NCBI GenBank assembly: GCA_002701845.1
Contig: NZXG01000016.1
Location: 1 to 64,000 of the forward strand
Reading direction: 5' to 3'
DNA from: Pseudomonadales bacterium
GTDB lineage: Bacteria; Pseudomonadota; Gammaproteobacteria; Pseudomonadales; Ketobacteraceae
Length of the DNA stretch: 64,000 bases
Shown here one piece after another: positions 75 to 10,388 of this stretch. Both the position numbers and the translations under genes were made by a program. The notes beneath the pieces are model-generated. The model was not told the DNA's origin, made no database searches, and saw nothing but the letters and a program-made list of their open reading frames with translations. Positions within the stretch are counted from its first letter, which is position 1. Every line of letters starts with the position of its first letter.

Positions 75-2273
75 TTAATAATAGCTCTTTAACTTCTTCA
101 AAAACACAGAAACAGAACGGTATTTCTTTATAATCTCATCTCTTTCAGCGTCAGACAGCTTCTTCACGTCTGAACGAGATGACAAAGTATTTCTGTGCTT
201 TTCGATTATCGGGCAAGGAGTGTGAACGTCAGAAGTTAAACTGTTTTCTTCTACATTAGTAGAGATATTCGGCGTAACCTCTCGGATAATCTCACTTATA
301 TCAGGAATCAGTATTTTAATATCTTTCTCACTGAACTCATTTAGATGATTCACAGTAAAGTTAACTGCAATTGCTCTCAAACTAGGCACTATTTTATGAT
401 CTTCATAAAATCCACCTATATATTTTTTCATCCTCAAGATCATTTCCTGTTTGTCAAAGTCGTCATCAAATGCAGCTGTTATATAGCCATAATAAGAGCC
501 AAAATGAGCAGCTATTTGATCTAAGCCTACACCCTCTAGACAATTTTCTACTTTTGAAATATCTGGAATTGACTCATTTAGCTCTTTGTACCGTCGCAGC
601 TTTTCCAATAACAATTCTCGACTATTGAGCTCCAATTTCATATTCTCGATCAATTCGAGGACTTTCGCCGCCTCTTCACTATATTTGACATCCAGTGACC
701 CATCATGAAAAACACTATTTACATCCGGCTCCTCCATATCATCAATTAGATTTTCTTTATCAACTGGCATTCTATCAATAGACCTAGAAAGCTCTTTCAC
801 CTCGTTAAGCCTCTCTAGAGACCCTACAAAATCCAATACATGAACATAGTCTTTATTAGGTGTTTTTCTTAATCCACGCCCTAACTGTTGAAGCCAAATG
901 GTTCTAGAGCCCGTATACCTCATAAAAATGAGTAGATTGGTTTCTGGAATATCAATTCCCTCATTAAATAGGTCACACACCAATATATACTTATAATTTC
1001 CCTCTCTAAAACTTCTAATATTCTCTCTTCTTTCCTGATCCTGCATTTTTGAATGTACGAGAGTAGCTGACCCGAGCTGAAAAAATCCTATAAGGTGGTG
1101 CATGTGGCGAATGTTTCTACAGAATACGATTCCCTTTACTCTCTGTATCCCCTGTTCTTCAACAGTTTTCTCAACAATACGAACAACTTCCTGATCTTTT
1201 TTATGCAAGAATAATTTTTTATCCAAATCAGAAATGGATAGACCACTTTCTAATTGATTAATTTTATCCTGATCAAGATCATCAAGAAGGACGAGATATC
1301 TAGGAAATGCCAACTTCCTATGCTTTAAAGCCCAAACCAAATCGAATTTACCAATATGCCCATCAGCCCCACCAAAAAAAGAGATTACATCTTTGTTGTC
1401 TGCACGATATGGCGTGGCAGTTAAACCAACCAGCAGTTTAGGCTGAAATAGGCTGACCACTTCGGAATAAGTTCTTGCTGCCGTGTGGTGCGCCTCATCG
1501 ACAACAATAAAATCATATGAATTTTTGCATAGATCACCCAGTTGGCCATATAACGTATCAAATGATGCAAACACAAAATCTGTGTCCTCAGGTCTCGTTC
1601 CAGAAAAGCAGGCAGAGAAGCTGTAATTTCCAATACCTAAGACGTTTTTGAATGCTGTAACCGACTGAAGCAAGATTTCTACTTGATGCGCAAGAAAGAG
1701 AATCCTTGGTCGCTCAGCAGACTCTTGAATTAGCCTCTTTATTAGATGAGCTACTGTATAGGTTTTTCCCAAACCTGTAGCCATCTCAATCAAAAGCTTG
1801 TTTTTTCCTGCATTATATTTGTGCAAAGCTTCATCAATGACATCTTGCTGGTACTTTCTTGGTTTAATATCCCGACCAATCTCTGAGTGTTTTACCACCC
1901 AAAGATTCTGCAACTCATCTCGATCAATAAGCTCTACACCCAAGCGCAATGCTCGTGCTTTAACTTCTGAGGTGAAGTATGAATTGGTAACTAATATCTT
2001 GTTAGACACGTTTGCTAATTTAGCGCCTGTAACAAGTTGGTTTAAGGCTTTTACGTCAACGGTAGCGCTCAAGTTCCGTTGTTTAACTTCGATAGCAAAT
2101 TTTCTCTTTCCTTTGTAAGCAAAGATATCCACGCCACCATCACCGTGTTTAAATTCTCTCCCAACTCTTGTAATTTCAGCATCCGACCACCCGGATGCAA
2201 GAAATAGATCTCTAACAAAAATCTCGAAATCTGCAGGTGTTAGCTGGTCAATATCTTTAAAGTCTTTTACCAT
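75..2273 (-). CDS. Mrr-like restriction endonuclease domain fused to DEAD/DEAH SF2 helicase
   Basis: N-terminal GDGGVDIFAYKGKRKFAIEVKQ (D..ExK nuclease core); MATGLGKT (Walker A), VVDEAHH (DEAH), QQLGRGLR (motif VI). Confidence 0.9.
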   Translation of the reverse strand: MVKDFKDIDQLTPADFEIFVRDLFLASGWSDAEITRVGREFKHGDGGVDIFAYKGKRKFAIEVKQRNLSATVDVKALNQLVTGAKLANVSNKILVTNSYFTSEVKARALRLGVELIDRDELQNLWVVKHSEIGRDIKPRKYQQDVIDEALHKYNAGKNKLLIEMATGLGKTYTVAHLIKRLIQESAERPRILFLAHQVEILLQSVTAFKNVLGIGNYSFSACFSGTRPEDTDFVFASFDTLYGQLGDLCKNSYDFIVVDEAHHTAARTYSEVVSLFQPKLLVGLTATPYRADNKDVISFFGGADGHIGKFDLVWALKHRKLAFPRYLVLLDDLDQDKINQLESGLSISDLDKKLFLHKKDQEVVRIVEKTVEEQGIQRVKGIVFCRNIRHMHHLIGFFQLGSATLVHSKMQDQERRENIRSFREGNYKYILVCDLFNEGIDIPETNLLIFMRYTGSRTIWLQQLGRGLRKTPNKDYVHVLDFVGSLERLNEVKELSRSIDRMPVDKENLIDDMEEPDVNSVFHDGSLDVKYSEEAAKVLELIENMKLELNSRELLLEKLRRYKELNESIPDISKVENCLEGVGLDQIAAHFGSYYGYITAAFDDDFDKQEMILRMKKYIGGFYEDHKIVPSLRAIAVNFTVNHLNEFSEKDIKILIPDISEIIREVTPNISTNVEENSLTSDVHTPCPIIEKHRNTLSSRSDVKKLSDAERDEIIKKYRSVSVFLKKLKSYY

Positions 2274-2347: not shown

Positions 2348-2587
2348 TCACAGCTGCTTAGGGTTTAGCCCGGCGGCTTTCAAGCGCTGAGTCAGATTGC
2401 GCATTTTGCTAAATTCGGTGCCAAAGCTGCTCCGCAGACCTACTCCTTCACAGAACTCTTTGGCGGTGATGTTCTTCAGTTCATCGGCATATTTGATCAT
2501 TTGCAGATGAAGTTCAGCGGTGTATTGATTGCGAGGGGCATCTGCCAGGACCTGCTTGATGCGCTCGTAAATCTCGTTTTCGTTCAT
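2348..2587 (-). CDS. small HTH-like protein of unknown function
   Basis: Intact 79-aa ORF, predicted helical, between tniQ and cargo. Confidence 0.65.
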   Translation of the reverse strand: MNENEIYERIKQVLADAPRNQYTAELHLQMIKYADELKNITAKEFCEGVGLRSSFGTEFSKMRNLTQRLKAAGLNPKQL

Positions 2588-2751: not shown

Positions 2752-4224
2752 TTAAGCCATATTGTTGATTTTAAAACCAAAGAATTGGCTTAGGCTTGCT
2801 GTGCTATCAACGTCGGCAGCAACGCTATACTGGAGTTCGCCACTCTGCATAGCCATAACAAGTTGGACAATTGAGTACCCCTGGCGCTGAACACCAGCCA
2901 TAGATAAGGCACCCGAAGGAGGCTCTGACTTGCGAGCATTGCTCCGCAGTACACTAATCAGGTCCAGGCAGCCTAGTTTATCGACAACCCAGTCGCGATT
3001 CAGGCTATCCGGTTTCTGTATTGCCCGGATAGCTCCTGCATCCAGGAGCTGTTTGAGTTGGTACCGAGTTACCTCAAGAGCTTCGCAGGCTTCCGCCATC
3101 GTCCAGTTTGAAGATATTTCATTCGCGAGCGCTTCCACCTGATCCCGCTGATAATGCGCCTTACCTTTGAAAACAATCGGCGTGATACGTCCCTGCTGAA
3201 CAAGCTTATCAATCCTTTCGAGGCGAGATCCCAGTATACGGGCAGCTTCTTTTTTGGAGATAATATTTCGCGCTGTTGACGCTAGCTGTATTCGGGTGAT
3301 CCGCTCCGGCTCCAAAACGCCAGGCCAATATTCCTCGATGTATCGATCAAATTCAGCCTTAATGCGAGCGATACCCCGATTCTCTTGTTGCCGATGTAAA
3401 CGTTCGTAAAGATCTCTAAAGTGCTTGTTTAGGCCAGCTTGACCTTTGCTGCTCATTGGTCGGTCAACATACTGGCTTAGCAGCGAATAGAAGCTGTCTG
3501 GCCAAGCTTGCAGCGTTTGCCATACATTTTCGTAAACATGGGCCAATTCATAGCTTTGCAGCGCAACAGGGTTAAATGATCCGGCCAGCAATCGAGCTTG
3601 ATAATGTGCGATAAAGTGAATCAGGCTAAGCACTTCCCTAAACTCCAACCCCATTAGCACAACAGGGCTTGAGCAGCCTGGCTGTTTACCAGCCAGTAGC
3701 GCTTCGATGTGCAGGCATTGTTGTATTGAACTCGACGGTGCATGTGCTCCGGCCGTTTTTATTGGGCAATCTCCTCCATCAAACCGGTTTAGATACTGAC
3801 GGTACCAACCGAGGTTTTTGCCAGTAGCGGGGTTTTGATCTACCAAAATACTTTTGTGTCTGGAACAAGCCACCACAGGAAGTAAAGCCCATTGGTATTT
3901 ACAGTAACCTAGCTCTTCTAGACATTCCGGACAAACTCGTGGACTCTTTACAAGGATATAGGGGGTATCTATAACTCGCTGAAAAGAACGATACACCGGT
4001 GTAATTTTTGATTGGTATTCCGACAACCCTAAAGTTGATAATAGTGGCGCTGCATCACATTCCCCAGATAACAACTGATGGATAGGTGCGCGATTATTTT
4101 TCCAATTCAGCCCTGCATAATGTAAAAGATGTCCGATATGCTTAAAGCCATTTTGCTCAGATACTCTTATGAGATAGCTCACCAAGCACTCGTCGGATCG
4201 CGGCGCAGGTTTTGCCAAGAGCAT
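2752..4224 (-). CDS. tniQ: TniQ/TnsD family target-selection protein (large, 490 aa)
   Basis: N-term PRSDECLVSYLIRVSEQNGFKHIGHLL; zinc-finger CPECLEELGYCKYQWALLPVVACSRH; C-terminal helix-turn-helix-like repeats. Confidence 0.88.
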   Translation of the reverse strand: MLLAKPAPRSDECLVSYLIRVSEQNGFKHIGHLLHYAGLNWKNNRAPIHQLLSGECDAAPLLSTLGLSEYQSKITPVYRSFQRVIDTPYILVKSPRVCPECLEELGYCKYQWALLPVVACSRHKSILVDQNPATGKNLGWYRQYLNRFDGGDCPIKTAGAHAPSSSIQQCLHIEALLAGKQPGCSSPVVLMGLEFREVLSLIHFIAHYQARLLAGSFNPVALQSYELAHVYENVWQTLQAWPDSFYSLLSQYVDRPMSSKGQAGLNKHFRDLYERLHRQQENRGIARIKAEFDRYIEEYWPGVLEPERITRIQLASTARNIISKKEAARILGSRLERIDKLVQQGRITPIVFKGKAHYQRDQVEALANEISSNWTMAEACEALEVTRYQLKQLLDAGAIRAIQKPDSLNRDWVVDKLGCLDLISVLRSNARKSEPPSGALSMAGVQRQGYSIVQLVMAMQSGELQYSVAADVDSTASLSQFFGFKINNMA

Positions 4225-4278
4225 GAGAATTAAATCTCTACCTACACCAACCGACCTGCTGTTAACAGCAAGTGGCGC

Positions 4279-4809
4279 TTAAATTCTTGTAAAAGCTCGA
4301 TGAGATGCATATATCCTTGGTACGGACTCTTCATCTCGCTCTTCTTTTGACAGAATATCAGCATAATAAAGCCCCTCCTTTAAAGGCGAAAAATTCAACC
4401 CAAGCTTCTTTACAGAACACATCATCAGCCCACAATAGCTTGCTCTGTTATCTTGGAACTGGTTCCGTGGTGAATCAAACAAACCCCGAACTGAAACCAA
4501 CTGGTGGCATCTGGCCTTATCAGGAAGGTCCCAGTCCCAATTCTTCGGTTCCATGTACAAGCATCGAAAGCATTGAGGCCTCTGTACCACAGCTGATGGG
4601 ACATCATCAATTCCGAGCTCTATAAAACGGCCGGAAATAATTCTTACTAAACCACTATAACTGCAACAAACGTAGTACTTTTTCTTTGACGAATTGATCA
4701 AGAATCTTTTAAATCGACCAACATCATTAAATCCATTCTTATACGACAAATCACTTAGATAATCGCCAAACCCTTGCTGATCATTTGGCTTGCTTCTATC
4801 CAGTAACAT
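4279..4809 (-). CDS. short TniQ-like protein (176 aa)
   Basis: N-term PNDQQGFGDYLSDLSYKNGFNDVGRFKRFL resembles TniQ; degenerate zinc-knuckle CFRCL...W..LPDKARCHQL; located directly after tnsC. Confidence 0.65.
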   Translation of the reverse strand: MLLDRSKPNDQQGFGDYLSDLSYKNGFNDVGRFKRFLINSSKKKYYVCCSYSGLVRIISGRFIELGIDDVPSAVVQRPQCFRCLYMEPKNWDWDLPDKARCHQLVSVRGLFDSPRNQFQDNRASYCGLMMCSVKKLGLNFSPLKEGLYYADILSKEERDEESVPRIYASHRAFTRI

Positions 4810-4845: not shown

Positions 4846-5856
4846 TCAGCCTGTCAAACAATAGATTTTGTTGTCTTTCAGTATTCCATATTCAATGTAC
4901 TCAGCGTTTACTATTGCGTTTTTATTTGCACGACTGCCAAAACTCCAGTCCGAATGAACCACCAGCTCCCTCAATACAAGCTTTTCTATTGGCAACTTGA
5001 ATGCATTGAAATCATCTTCAACGCCATAACGACGAACTACATTCGCAAATAGTTGAATGCTGATCTTTTTACCCTCCATATCTGAGAGTATAAATGCATC
5101 ACAGACCAGATTTGCTGTAGCAGCCAGATTACCGCTGGTTGCAGCAAAGCATCGTAATGCAAAGGAAACGTCTTCTATTTTTAAATTTTTCGATATTCCA
5201 TAGTGGTCGCCCAAAAACTTCAACAGTCGCCTGTAATCATCTCTCGTTTCTTTTTGACTTACTCGATATGGCGGAATAACGTAATGATACGCAATCCGAC
5301 GCTTGAGCTGCCGATTCGAATCAACCAGATATCTACTCCAAGGCATCCCCATAAAAACAATCGGAATCTCTGTGTCATTAATCAGATCTTTAAAAAGGTC
5401 GGCAATTCCAGTAACGACTTTGGCACTACGTCGTTCAATAATCACCTGGATTTCATCAAGAATGAGCAACTCAAGGCCAACAGTATTTATGAGAATAATC
5501 AACCGTGCATACAGCTCTCCCTTATTTCTTGCGCCGCGCCCTTGCTGGGGATCGCCTATAGCTACCAATAGAGATCTCAAGAATTCTTCTGGCGTTGCTA
5601 CTGAGCGCAATTCATAATGAAGGACTGGTATGTGTGTTCTTTCTTCATCCTCAACAACCGGATGATTTTTCACATAGTTTTTCGCCAATTCACTTTTTCC
5701 GCTTCCTGACTCACCGGTTAACAACAAGCACGACGCCACCCCATAGTGCTTTTTCTTATGGCGCAGCGAATCAAAGAGATTGATCATGTCAGTTAAAAAA
5801 GGATTTTTTATGAACGGGCGCTCTAGAATTTTATGAGCCATCATTCTACGCTCCAA
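4846..5856 (-). CDS. tnsC: TnsC/TniB family AAA+ transposition regulator
   Basis: GESGSGKS Walker A; LELLILDEIQ Walker B; syntenic with tnsA/B. Confidence 0.92.
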   Translation of the reverse strand: MERRMMAHKILERPFIKNPFLTDMINLFDSLRHKKKHYGVASCLLLTGESGSGKSELAKNYVKNHPVVEDEERTHIPVLHYELRSVATPEEFLRSLLVAIGDPQQGRGARNKGELYARLIILINTVGLELLILDEIQVIIERRSAKVVTGIADLFKDLINDTEIPIVFMGMPWSRYLVDSNRQLKRRIAYHYVIPPYRVSQKETRDDYRRLLKFLGDHYGISKNLKIEDVSFALRCFAATSGNLAATANLVCDAFILSDMEGKKISIQLFANVVRRYGVEDDFNAFKLPIEKLVLRELVVHSDWSFGSRANKNAIVNAEYIEYGILKDNKIYCLTG

Positions 5857-7757
5857 CCACCCAGATCAAGATCATCATCAGAGCCTTCGAACTCCACTTG
5901 CATAGCTTGCCTGGAATTATCTACCACTAATTTTATGTCGCTGACACCAATTTTCTCTGATCTGGCAGCTTTCGACGTCGTCACCTGGTTTTTTCTCCGG
6001 GAATTTCTGGCATGAAACTCCTCTCGTTCTTTCGACAGCTTGACCCTGGCTTTCTGAAGATCCAGGTTATCCAGCTTGGATTTACCGGTTGCCCTGGCTG
6101 CCTCTCTTACCTTCCCATGCTCGTATGCCGATAGGCCTGATGCATATTCAAAATTTTCACTTTCGATCTTCAGATATACTTTGTTGACAGAATCGAGCAC
6201 CAAAATATAACCGATATCAAAGGGGTTATACTTAATGGTGACTGTTCCTGGACCATCCCTGCGGTACAGATCTTTTAAAAGATTGGAGTTGTAATCCAGC
6301 ACAAACTTTCTGATTCCACCTTTGCTTAGTTCGCGCGTTTCGGTCGCCATGAGAATTGGCGTAATCTCCATTTCATCCTCAACAGGAACCGGAAAATCAC
6401 GCTCTGAATCTGTCCATAATTCATACGGTGTCATGCCCAAACTCTCGACCGGAATGTGGTGGTAGACTTTGGTTATCCAGTCAACAAGATATCCTTTAAA
6501 CTCCGAGAACGTAATCGTTGCTTCCTGTCTGCCATCATAAGTATCGCCGCACTTGCCTACCTTTCGAACCACTCCAGGCAAATCATCCAATACCATAGAA
6601 TTCACAATGCCAAAGAATCGTTCTACTCGACTTTTATAGTTACCCTTTCGTATTGGGCAATACTGAAACAACGAACCTATTTCATCTGCGACAGCGCTGA
6701 AGTTTCTTCCCCAAAATTCATTGCCATTGTCCGTTACAAGCGTAGTGGGTATTCCGTGGGCAGGCCATGCGCCATCCGAACCGACTGCTTCCATAAAAGC
6801 ATCTTTCGGTAAAAATGCATTGATACAAGCGATACAAACTGATGCAAACGATGGCTTTTCAAACGATAGCTGAAAGCCTAGAACCATATGAGAGTAGTGG
6901 TCGATGAGAACGGTAATATTTGGTCTGCCCAACAGGGTTTTGTGATCGTCATGGAGCACGTGAATATCTAACAGGGTGTGATCTATTTCAACCCGTTCAA
7001 GGACTCTGGTAGTTTCTATTCCACTTTCGGAGCTGGCCAACTCCGCCTGTAGAGTTCTTATTCCCTGTCGCGCTTTCTGCTTTGACTGATAACTTGCTTC
7101 TAAAACACGAGATTGTACAGTGAGATAATTTGGAACCTTCAGCTGCTCGCCAGGATGATCCAAATTGTGCTCGATAATTTTATCCTCAACATTGCGATAG
7201 ACTGATGCCATTGAAGGCTGGCTCTTGTTGAAATATCGCTTGGCGGCCTCTTTTATAATTTGCAGCACCTTTTGATCAATTTTAGGCTCTCGATCACCTT
7301 TAAAACGGTGCCGTGGATACAAACCACGCATCTTGCTGCCAGACTCGACAAAACTCTTATACCAACTTCTTACAGACTGCCAGTGTGGCGGTTTTTCACT
7401 AAGCTCTGACGCGACTTCAAGAATGATCTGCCCAGAACTCTTTTCCGTTATTTTTGTAACGCCGCGCTCGGTCAATCTCTTGATGTATTTATATTTCCGG
7501 TTGGTCTCTTTCTGTTCTTTTTCGGTGAGATCCGTAAACTTCAGTTCACCAAAGTCACGCGACTCCGCTAGAAACCTAGCACCACCAGACTTATAAATAT
7601 CGTCAAGATCTTTTCTGCCAACGCTAATACTTGCCCCAGTTGATACATCCGCAAGAATTACTTCGCTTTTTCCAGCAGATCTGATGATCGCCCGGTGACA
7701 AGGTTTAGCGCCGCTGAACTCGACAATGACACCTTCTTCCCACAAATCAATGGACAT
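5841..7757 (-). CDS. tnsB: TnsB/TniA family DDE transposase
   Basis: rve-type DDE core: VEIDHTLLD ... LVTDNGNEFWG ... KSRVERFFG; 638 aa; overlaps tnsC by 16 nt. Confidence 0.95.
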   Translation of the reverse strand: MSIDLWEEGVIVEFSGAKPCHRAIIRSAGKSEVILADVSTGASISVGRKDLDDIYKSGGARFLAESRDFGELKFTDLTEKEQKETNRKYKYIKRLTERGVTKITEKSSGQIILEVASELSEKPPHWQSVRSWYKSFVESGSKMRGLYPRHRFKGDREPKIDQKVLQIIKEAAKRYFNKSQPSMASVYRNVEDKIIEHNLDHPGEQLKVPNYLTVQSRVLEASYQSKQKARQGIRTLQAELASSESGIETTRVLERVEIDHTLLDIHVLHDDHKTLLGRPNITVLIDHYSHMVLGFQLSFEKPSFASVCIACINAFLPKDAFMEAVGSDGAWPAHGIPTTLVTDNGNEFWGRNFSAVADEIGSLFQYCPIRKGNYKSRVERFFGIVNSMVLDDLPGVVRKVGKCGDTYDGRQEATITFSEFKGYLVDWITKVYHHIPVESLGMTPYELWTDSERDFPVPVEDEMEITPILMATETRELSKGGIRKFVLDYNSNLLKDLYRRDGPGTVTIKYNPFDIGYILVLDSVNKVYLKIESENFEYASGLSAYEHGKVREAARATGKSKLDNLDLQKARVKLSKEREEFHARNSRRKNQVTTSKAARSEKIGVSDIKLVVDNSRQAMQVEFEGSDDDLDLGGWSVE

Positions 7758-8400: not shown

Positions 8401-8421
8401 CCTTGCTCAAACTATACGCCA

Positions 8422-8485
8422 CTTTATAAGGTTTCCCTAAAAATATTTATAAGGTAGTCCTATAAATTTATAGGTTTTCCCTACA
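8422..8485 (-). repeat. Three TnsB-binding-site-like repeats in the transposon end (8466-8485, 8445-8464, 8422-8441)
   Basis: Minus strand: TGTAGGGAAAACCTATAAAT / TATAGGACTACCTTATAAAT / TTTAGGGAAACCTTATAAAG. Confidence 0.8.
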
Positions 8486-8490
8486 ATTCA
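8486..8490. other. candidate 5-bp target-site duplication (ATTCA) next to transposon terminus
   Basis: 5 bp immediately outside the ..CTACA terminus; partner copy not in window. Confidence 0.6.
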
Positions 8491-8495
8491 CAAAC

Positions 8496-10388
8496 TCACA
8501 CCACATCCGCCAGATTCCCCTTGCTCTCCAACCAGCTTTTGCGATCCCCCGCCCGCTTCTTCGCCAACAGTAAATCCATGGCATCGTTGGTGTCGTCCCC
8601 CTGCTCCACCACCAGTTGCACCAAACGGCGGGTATCGGGGGCCATGGTGGTTTCCCTCAGCTGTATCGGATTCATTTCCCCCAGGCCCTTGAAGCGGGTG
8701 ACCTGGATATTACCGCGTTTTTTCTCCGCTTTGATGCGATCCAGAATGCCCTGCTTTTCGTCTTCGTCCAGGGCGTAATACACGTCCTTGGCCACGTCAA
8801 TGCGGTACAGGGGTGGCATGGCCACGTAGACATGGCCCGCCAGCACCAGGGGCCGGAAGTGGCGCACGAACAGGGCGCACAGCAGGGTGGCAATGTGCAG
8901 GCCGTCGGAGTCGGCGTCCGCCAGGATGCAGATTTTGTTGTAGCGCAGGTTGGCCAGATCGTCGGAGCCCGGTTCCAGGCCGATGGCAATGGAGATGTCG
9001 TGCACCTCCTGGGAAGCCAGAATCTCCGCTGAATCCACTTCCCAGGTATTGAGGATTTTACCGCGCAGGGGCATCACCGCCTGGAATTCCCGGTCCCGGG
9101 CCTGCTTGGCGGAGCCGCCGGCGGAATCCCCTTCCACCAGAAACAATTCGGCGCGGTCGGAATCCTGGCTGGCGCAGTCCGCCAGTTTGCCCGGTAGTGC
9201 CGGCCCGGCGGTGACTTTTTTGCGCACCACTTTTTTGCTGGCGCGCATGCGTTTTTGCGCGTTACTGACCGCCAGATCCGCCAGGGCATCCCCCTCGGCC
9301 GTGTGCTGGTGCAGCCACAGGCTGAAGGCGTCCTTCACCACGCCGGAGACGAAAGCCGCGGTTTGGCGGGAGGACAGTTTTTCCTTGGTCTGGCCGGCGA
9401 ACTGTGGGTCCTGCATTTTCACCGACAATACATAGCTGCATTTATCCCACACATCCTCGGCGGTGAGCTTCACCCCACGGGGCAGCAGGTTGCGGTTCTC
9501 GCAGTATTCCCGCATGGCCTCCGCCAGGCCGCTGCGCAGACCATTGACATGGGTGCCACCCTGGGCGGTGGGAATCAGGTTGACGTAACTTTCGGTGATC
9601 AGCTCGCCGCCCTCCGGCAGCCATTGCAGGGCCCAGTCCACTGCCTCGGTATCGGCGCTCATGCTGCCCACGAAGGGTTCTTCCGGCAGCAATGCCCATC
9701 CCTGGTTGGCGCTCAGCAGATAATCCTTAAGTCCGTCTTCGTAGTACCACTCCTCGGTTTCGCCACTGTTGTGATCCGTAAAGCAAACCTGCAACCCGGG
9801 GCACAGCACCGCCTTGGCCCGCAACAAATGGGTCAACCGGCTTACGGAATATTTGGGGGAATCAAAATAATGGGGGTCCGCCAGAAATCGCAGGGAGGTG
9901 CCGGTGTTGCGCTTGCCGCAGGTGTCCACCACCTCCAGCTCCGAGACTTTTTCGCCCCCTTTGAACGCCATGCGATAGACATTGCCGTCCCGGCGGATGG
10001 TCACCTCCAGCATTTGCGAGAGGGCATTGACCACCGACACCCCCACCCCGTGTAAACCGCCGGAGAACTGATAGCTCTTGTTGGAAAACTTGCCGCCGGA
10101 GTGCAGGGTGGAGAGGATGACTTCCACCCCCGGCACGCCTTTCTCCGGGTGGATGTCCACCGGCATGCCGCGGCCGTCGTCCACCACTTCCAGGGAGCCG
10201 TCTTTATGCAGGGTCACCTCGATTTTTTTGGCGTGACCGGCCAGGGCCTCGTCCACGCTGTTGTCGATCACTTCCTGGGCCAGGTGGTTGGGGCGGGTGG
10301 TGTCGGTGTACATCCCCGGCCGCTTGCGGACCGGATCCAGGCCGCTGAGAACTTCGATGGATTCCGAGGTGTAAGCGTCGTTTGCCAT
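8496..10388 (-). CDS. parE: DNA topoisomerase IV subunit B
   Basis: GHKL and TOPRIM motifs (EVIDNSVDEALAGHAK, LFLVEGDSAGGSAKQARDR); ends KSWLESKGNLADVV. Confidence 0.98.
   Translation of the reverse strand: MANDAYTSESIEVLSGLDPVRKRPGMYTDTTRPNHLAQEVIDNSVDEALAGHAKKIEVTLHKDGSLEVVDDGRGMPVDIHPEKGVPGVEVILSTLHSGGKFSNKSYQFSGGLHGVGVSVVNALSQMLEVTIRRDGNVYRMAFKGGEKVSELEVVDTCGKRNTGTSLRFLADPHYFDSPKYSVSRLTHLLRAKAVLCPGLQVCFTDHNSGETEEWYYEDGLKDYLLSANQGWALLPEEPFVGSMSADTEAVDWALQWLPEGGELITESYVNLIPTAQGGTHVNGLRSGLAEAMREYCENRNLLPRGVKLTAEDVWDKCSYVLSVKMQDPQFAGQTKEKLSSRQTAAFVSGVVKDAFSLWLHQHTAEGDALADLAVSNAQKRMRASKKVVRKKVTAGPALPGKLADCASQDSDRAELFLVEGDSAGGSAKQARDREFQAVMPLRGKILNTWEVDSAEILASQEVHDISIAIGLEPGSDDLANLRYNKICILADADSDGLHIATLLCALFVRHFRPLVLAGHVYVAMPPLYRIDVAKDVYYALDEDEKQGILDRIKAEKKRGNIQVTRFKGLGEMNPIQLRETTMAPDTRRLVQLVVEQGDDTNDAMDLLLAKKRAGDRKSWLESKGNLADVV

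Follow-up and report, generated by a model that had tools for sequence, protein, structure and literature searches.

Why does a Tn7-like transposon inserted at the 3' end of parE carry two TniQ-family proteins of very different size, and what is the smaller one for? The question is raised by a stretch of 64,000 nucleotides (hereafter, the window) from a Pseudomonadales bacterium of the Ketobacteraceae (assembly GCA_002701845.1, contig NZXG01000016.1, positions 1 to 64,000), in which open reading frames of 176 and 490 aa follow directly after tnsC, exactly where a preliminary description made from the letters alone had placed them. Tn7 itself combines TnsABC with TnsD for insertion at glmS and uses TnsE for conjugal plasmids. 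The reading developed here, which we regard as about evenly poised between right and wrong, is that the long TniQ homes the element to the 3' end of parE, while the short TniQ is an adaptor for a second route leading to non-parE sites. The features of the locus are the following.

8496..10388, minus strand: parE, 630 aa, intact; the attachment-site gene, whose 3' end adjoins the transposon right end
8420..8492, minus strand: transposon right end, with the terminus TGTGAATTGTAGG and three TnsB-site-like repeats ending in TATAAA
7747..8400, minus strand: tnsA endonuclease, 217 aa, Tn7_TnsA-like_N
5841..7757, minus strand: tnsB DDE transposase, 638 aa, rve and Mu-transpos_C
4846..5856, minus strand: tnsC, TniB-family AAA ATPase, 336 aa
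4279..4809, minus strand: short TniQ-family protein, 176 aa; N-terminal helical part with an NGF motif, half a zinc finger
2752..4224, minus strand: long TniQ/TnsD-type protein, 490 aa; PF06527 and a weakly HTH/excisionase-like C-terminal part
2348..2587, minus strand: small HTH_73 protein, 79 aa; next gene past the long TniQ, cargo or accessory
75..2273, minus strand: cargo Mrr_cat nuclease-helicase fusion, 732 aa; best PADLOC match a type IV methyl-directed restriction enzyme

The clustering of tnsA, tnsB, tnsC and a TniQ/TnsD gene in the window identifies a Tn7-like transposon. Its right end begins 3 bp past the parE stop codon and contains TnsB-type repeats; both ends and a 5-bp target site duplication (TSD) were observed in relatives. 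As the first base of the window is also that of its contig, the element is truncated by an assembly break, in line with the preliminary description, which had seen it cut at the left edge; the left part was recovered neither by an end-motif search nor via a downstream gene. In the portion that is present, the type IV restriction-like Mrr_cat fusion adjoins the 79-aa HTH_73 protein. Elsewhere in the same genome (G000), three more TniQ genes with open frames of 586, 436 and 439 aa are located on contigs C17, C27 and C31 (L001-L003).

The 176-aa protein has no family match in Pfam (the PF06527 cut-off is not reached), NCBIfam or PHROGs, and its relationship becomes evident from direct comparisons. 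BLASTP matches its N-terminal 36 residues to the long TniQ (4e-4 in a single comparison), and residues 2-103 align with full-length TniQs that occupy the same operon position (hereafter, the slot) in related elements (hhalign 92.4%, E 5e-7), compared with 66% against long TniQs and 0.4% against a TnsC control. Over the TniQ set, Y17, N25, G26, C80, C83, W93 and C101 (short-protein numbering) are invariant, so that of the zinc finger the CxxC, the W and the third Cys are kept, while the fourth ligand, the H of CxxH, is absent. In addition to the zinc-finger Cys residues, C126 is kept in every short form; it is accompanied by a C-terminal region, CGL...LGL..S....Y..D, which is conserved among the short forms and absent from the full-length ones. 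Neither a Hel2-type nor an HTH domain is present. At the sequence level, no match of the short form to any solved TniQ structure was found, that of type V-K included. AlphaFold (AF2) models reach a mean pLDDT of 49.8 and 51.2 and are confident only for residues 10-40; a Foldseek search with such a low-confidence model returned Vibrio cholerae TniQ among the matches of best probability, at a non-significant E of about 1. By profile comparison, the 176-aa protein is a divergent relative of the TniQ family with a putative TniQ fold and, given its incomplete zinc finger, it is named here a TniQ relative rather than a canonical TniQ. Hence, the degenerate zinc knuckle noticed earlier is borne out as a half finger without its His ligand, and so is the presence of two TniQ-family proteins in one TnsABC element, for the long one by Pfam and for the short one by profile comparison; the concern that the short frame might not be a TniQ at all does not hold at the profile level.

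Homologues of 153-172 aa, 40-50% identical to the short TniQ of the window, occupy the slot on two Acinetobacter plasmids, in three Acinetobacter genomes and in Pseudohongiella, which together with the window makes seven elements from three lineages. In other relatives (G119, G307, G029 and the MAG Ch67), the slot is filled by a TniQ of 304-397 aa with an intact zinc finger, and in every homologue examined closely the slot TniQ comes directly after tnsC. The family is rare, with 9 of 392 genomes of the order matched in a search for tnsC (E 1e-40 or better), and three of 176 genomes of Acinetobacter species. Several copies have features of their own. A full-length slot TniQ in G049 (L051) is broken by one in-frame TGA with the frame open on either side, and damage is apparent in the copies L016 (a stop in tnsB, a frameshift in tnsC) and L019 (an interrupted tnsA, a frameshifted long TniQ). 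MAG Ch67 encodes a third TniQ of 394 aa and of the slot type (L015:4236-5420) a few kb downstream of its long TniQ; the two are separated by a DEDDh-type exonuclease-like gene.

With its TniQ likeness confined to the first ~100 residues and the fourth zinc ligand missing, the short gene could be taken for what decay has left of a second, full-length TniQ, and the preliminary description had itself considered a decayed duplicate absent from close relatives. This explanation is largely refuted by the same-slot homologues and by signs of purifying selection (dN/dS 0.20-0.38 within Acinetobacter), to which are added the persistence of the gene in three lineages and its own conserved C-terminal region; we consider it very improbable. 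Furthermore, a single clade of short-slot elements is rejected in the long-TniQ tree (p-AU 3.5e-5), which makes it likely that either the slot gene or the long TniQ moved between elements as a module, and the short form seems to have been exchanged as a working module; in the TnsB tree, such a clade is not rejected.

The long protein is a regular member of its family, matching Pfam TniQ PF06527 with 48.7 bits (E 1.6e-12), and has a sub-threshold HTH_17/excisionase-like match at residues 375-414. In the window and at six further loci (L018, L019, L027, L050, L051 and L053), the element lies directly after the parE stop codon with its tnsA end facing parE. The same location and orientation are found in a sister clade comprising G067, G028 (two copies) and G174, apart from the one G028 copy at another site described below; its TnsC is about 35% identical. 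There, a slot-type TniQ of 341-361 aa follows right behind tnsC, whereas a parE-type long TniQ is encoded 18-20 kb away on the opposite strand; for G067 and the two G028 copies, this places it immediately within the left end. The long TniQ probably reads parE, and its association with the parE insertion, as well as the lack of an assigned target for the short one, agree with what had been proposed at the outset. Between the window and the sister clade, identity amounts to 46% for the long TniQ, 40% for TnsA, 39% for TnsB, 34-35% for TnsC and 17-18% for the slot TniQ; the long TniQ is, hence, the best conserved of the core proteins and the slot TniQ the fastest diverging one, a pattern which fits a reader fixed on parE together with a second selector that is free to change.

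The main rival to the adaptor reading concerns precisely this pair of proteins. According to it, the short TniQ is an accessory or regulatory factor of the parE pathway itself, which binds TnsC together with the long TniQ or in competition with it and thereby tunes homing instead of selecting a different target. The constant presence of the slot gene in the operon of the window's clade, directly before the long TniQ, is consistent with such a role, as are the lack of a recognisable DNA-binding domain in the short form and the precedent of CyCAST, whose TniQ strongly lowers TnsD-driven homing (PMC10293859). However, in the sister clade it is the slot TniQ that remains with tnsABC while the parE-type TniQ is located far off, and the slot protein, which exists as two strongly dissimilar forms, has diverged at a much higher rate than the long TniQ; this is unlike a fixed subunit of one homing complex. 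We judge the homing regulator to be a real contender, if rather unlikely.

Sister elements at parE in the genus and family of the window share a conserved gene set lying between the right end and tnsA (L054-L057 with L087-L094 in G174, G028 and G067; L071 in G215). It consists of a 137-aa gene on the plus strand and, on the minus strand, a 301-aa gene, a 177-aa gene and an XRE regulator; the 137-aa and 301-aa genes have no Pfam match. The products of this set are candidate partners of the slot TniQ.

Insertions at parE are flanked by the 5-bp TSDs TTTAA (L018), TTAAG (L019), CCTTT (G119), TTTTT (G067) and GAGTC (G028a). Outside parE, one copy with the TSD CTTTC is inserted in an array of 84-bp repeats on an Acinetobacter plasmid, another with the TSD AGAAA is found in the Acinetobacter sichuanensis chromosome beside an IS982-type transposase gene, and a third (G028b, TSD TATGC) interrupts a dnaQ-like gene, the same genome harbouring a further copy at parE; the G028b element carries a full-length slot TniQ. 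The Pseudohongiella element (L052) is not next to parE within its locus. A second Acinetobacter plasmid contains the element at the identical base of the 84-bp array. Compared with one another, the two plasmid copies have mosaic cores; they may derive from one insertion, and two independent insertions at one site are, for this reason, not claimed. The tally, therefore, is about eleven parE sites versus three independent non-parE sites.

A query made of the joined flanks of the plasmid site found matches in 69 plasmid records, which in 67 cases extend over most of the query, with a best match of 99.9% in one uninterrupted piece, and a member of the plasmid family with this site carries Dot/Icm transfer genes. 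The 84-bp array was found on an Acinetobacter plasmid family of roughly 200-400 kb (L013/L028, L014/L029); each unit contains an inverted repeat, GAAAGTTT...AAACTTTC, and the transposon is located exactly at the end of one arm. The GC skew around the array is ambiguous as to a replication origin. By eye, no parE-like sequence was seen at the non-parE sites and, when these were compared, no common motif was evident.

The small number of non-parE insertions relative to those at parE, together with the lack of an obvious common motif, may be understood as rare off-target events of TnsABC and the long TniQ in which the short TniQ is not involved. Yet one of these insertions hit a transmissible plasmid, and such plasmids are what Tn7-like elements usually use as their second target; in addition, a slot TniQ stands behind every tnsC examined, which implies that some function of it is needed. 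This off-target explanation is, in our estimation, quite unlikely.

The preliminary description had suggested a second, possibly RNA-guided, targeting mode. The part concerning a second mode has gained from the non-parE sites with TSDs in the family, while RNA guidance has not stood up. In such a scheme, the short TniQ would partner a CRISPR effector, encoded either in trans or on the lost left side of the element, in the manner of CASTs of type I-F3 or V-K. There are several points of contact: the type I-F3 CAST Tn7017 has dual TniQ proteins with a parE-reading TnsD (PMC11406308), among PDB entries the full-length slot TniQs come nearest to the TniQs of I-F3 CASTs (7u5d at 7.6e-8, the V. cholerae protein at about 1e-6), and the short form resembles the Hel1-plus-zinc-finger plan of V-K TniQ. 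Against this, no CRISPR-like repeats were detected in seven complete or near-complete relatives and no cas genes in the inspected cargo of complete relatives, which makes RNA guidance unlikely, nor is either seen in the 8.5 kb of the element present in the window. In a genome-wide cas search covering type I-F (Cas7f), this protein was absent from the genome of the window and from 9 of 12 relatives, and in the remaining ones (G119, G174 and G758) it is encoded on contigs other than that of the element. Given, in addition, the above-mentioned lack of a sequence-level match between the short form and any solved TniQ, a CRISPR partner is hardly credible.

The search for another partner covered the cargo of the elements. 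No partner gene common to all short-slot elements was found. TnsE and TnsF were not among the Pfam matches of the window proteins, the L018 cargo and part of the L028/L029 cargo, in a scan that had no dedicated model for TnsF. All five Acinetobacter copies, different as their cargo is, have a 3'-5' exoribonuclease-like (DEDDh-type) gene immediately within the left end (L028:9605-10069, with equivalents in L016, L018, L019 and L029); the candidacy of this gene is weakened by close homologues on plasmids without these transposon ends. A tyrosine recombinase directly after the long TniQ of Pseudohongiella (L052:10871-11695) was set aside as a TnsF, since the residues of its catalytic motif are apparently intact and none of the other elements was seen to have it. 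Searches of viral contigs gave one spurious match and otherwise none.

According to the adaptor reading, the long TniQ would recognise parE and steer insertion to just past its stop codon, whereas the short TniQ would be a conserved, stripped-down adaptor whose N-terminal part and half zinc finger may touch TnsC. Being devoid of a DNA-binding extension of its own, the short TniQ would depend on another protein; this partner, which may lie outside the element and would probably be encoded by the host or the target plasmid, would bring TnsABC to non-parE sites such as plasmid DNA, so that the short TniQ may drive these insertions. Several observations speak against this role, namely that the G028b element at a non-parE site has the full-length and not the short slot TniQ, that the plasmid copies perhaps go back to one insertion, and that neither a universal partner nor a common site motif emerged. 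More specifically, a minimal, CRISPR-free TniQ of Hel1 plus half a zinc finger might recruit a protein that is already bound to conjugative-plasmid DNA, for instance a repeat-binding one; this version we consider unlikely. If it were true, the transposon would hitch-hike without itself encoding a DNA- or RNA-guided selector.

Elements with two TniQ proteins are already known, and so are TnsD proteins that read parE. What appears to be new is a short, conserved and CRISPR-free TniQ, the alternation of short and full-length forms in one slot, and the non-parE sites, although the supplementary tables of surveys may list such loci. A small TniQ beside a TnsD is taken as a sign of undiscovered target selectors, and the present family offers a compact, CRISPR-free test case with a fixed parE reader, a swappable second TniQ and documented non-parE sites. 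Furthermore, as CRISPR-free relatives of dual-TniQ CASTs at parE, these elements are useful for understanding how TniQ came to work with Cascade.

Dual TniQ/TnsD loci are not unusual, with 998 reported, CASTs included (PMC10293859), and a small TniQ tends to mark an additional target selector (PMC10293859, PMC9876797, PMC11406308). Tn7017/EasCAST (type I-F3) shares with the elements described here two TniQ-family proteins, one of which is tied to parE insertion (PMC11406308), and I-F3 TniQs are the nearest to the slot TniQs among solved structures; unlike in that system, the complete relatives inspected here have neither cas genes nor a CRISPR array, and the second TniQ, only 176 aa in the window, is encoded between the genes for TnsC and the long TniQ. 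The CRISPR-free dual TniQ-TnsD Tn7-like elements likewise encode one protein of >400 aa and one that is substantially smaller (PMC10293859). Compared with these published loci, the short form is below the TniQ core of roughly 300 aa (PMC10293859), has an incomplete finger and lacks a Hel2-like domain, and the slot alternates between short and full-length forms. In type V-K CASTs, TniQ consists of Hel1 and a zinc finger only and works as a TnsC adaptor (PMC10293859, PMC9876797); the ShCAST protein, thus, has the same plan of an N-terminal helical domain and a zinc finger linking TnsC to the target binder (PMC10293859, PMC9876797), while here Cas12k and CRISPR are absent, the finger is incomplete and accompanied by an extra conserved Cys, and a TnsD-type protein co-occurs. 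Tn6022 (TniQ and TnsF, plus TnsE) is comparable in having a small TniQ that needs another protein for targeting; in contrast, the window and the checked short-slot cargo showed no recognisable gene for TnsE or a TnsF-like protein, and the site is parE and not comM. With Tn7, finally, the family has in common a chromosomal attachment site, located next to the tnsA end where an essential gene has its 3' end, 5-bp duplications and extra plasmid insertions, but it differs from Tn7 in targeting parE instead of glmS, in its TniB-type TnsC, and in a TniQ relative as the candidate selector replacing TnsE.
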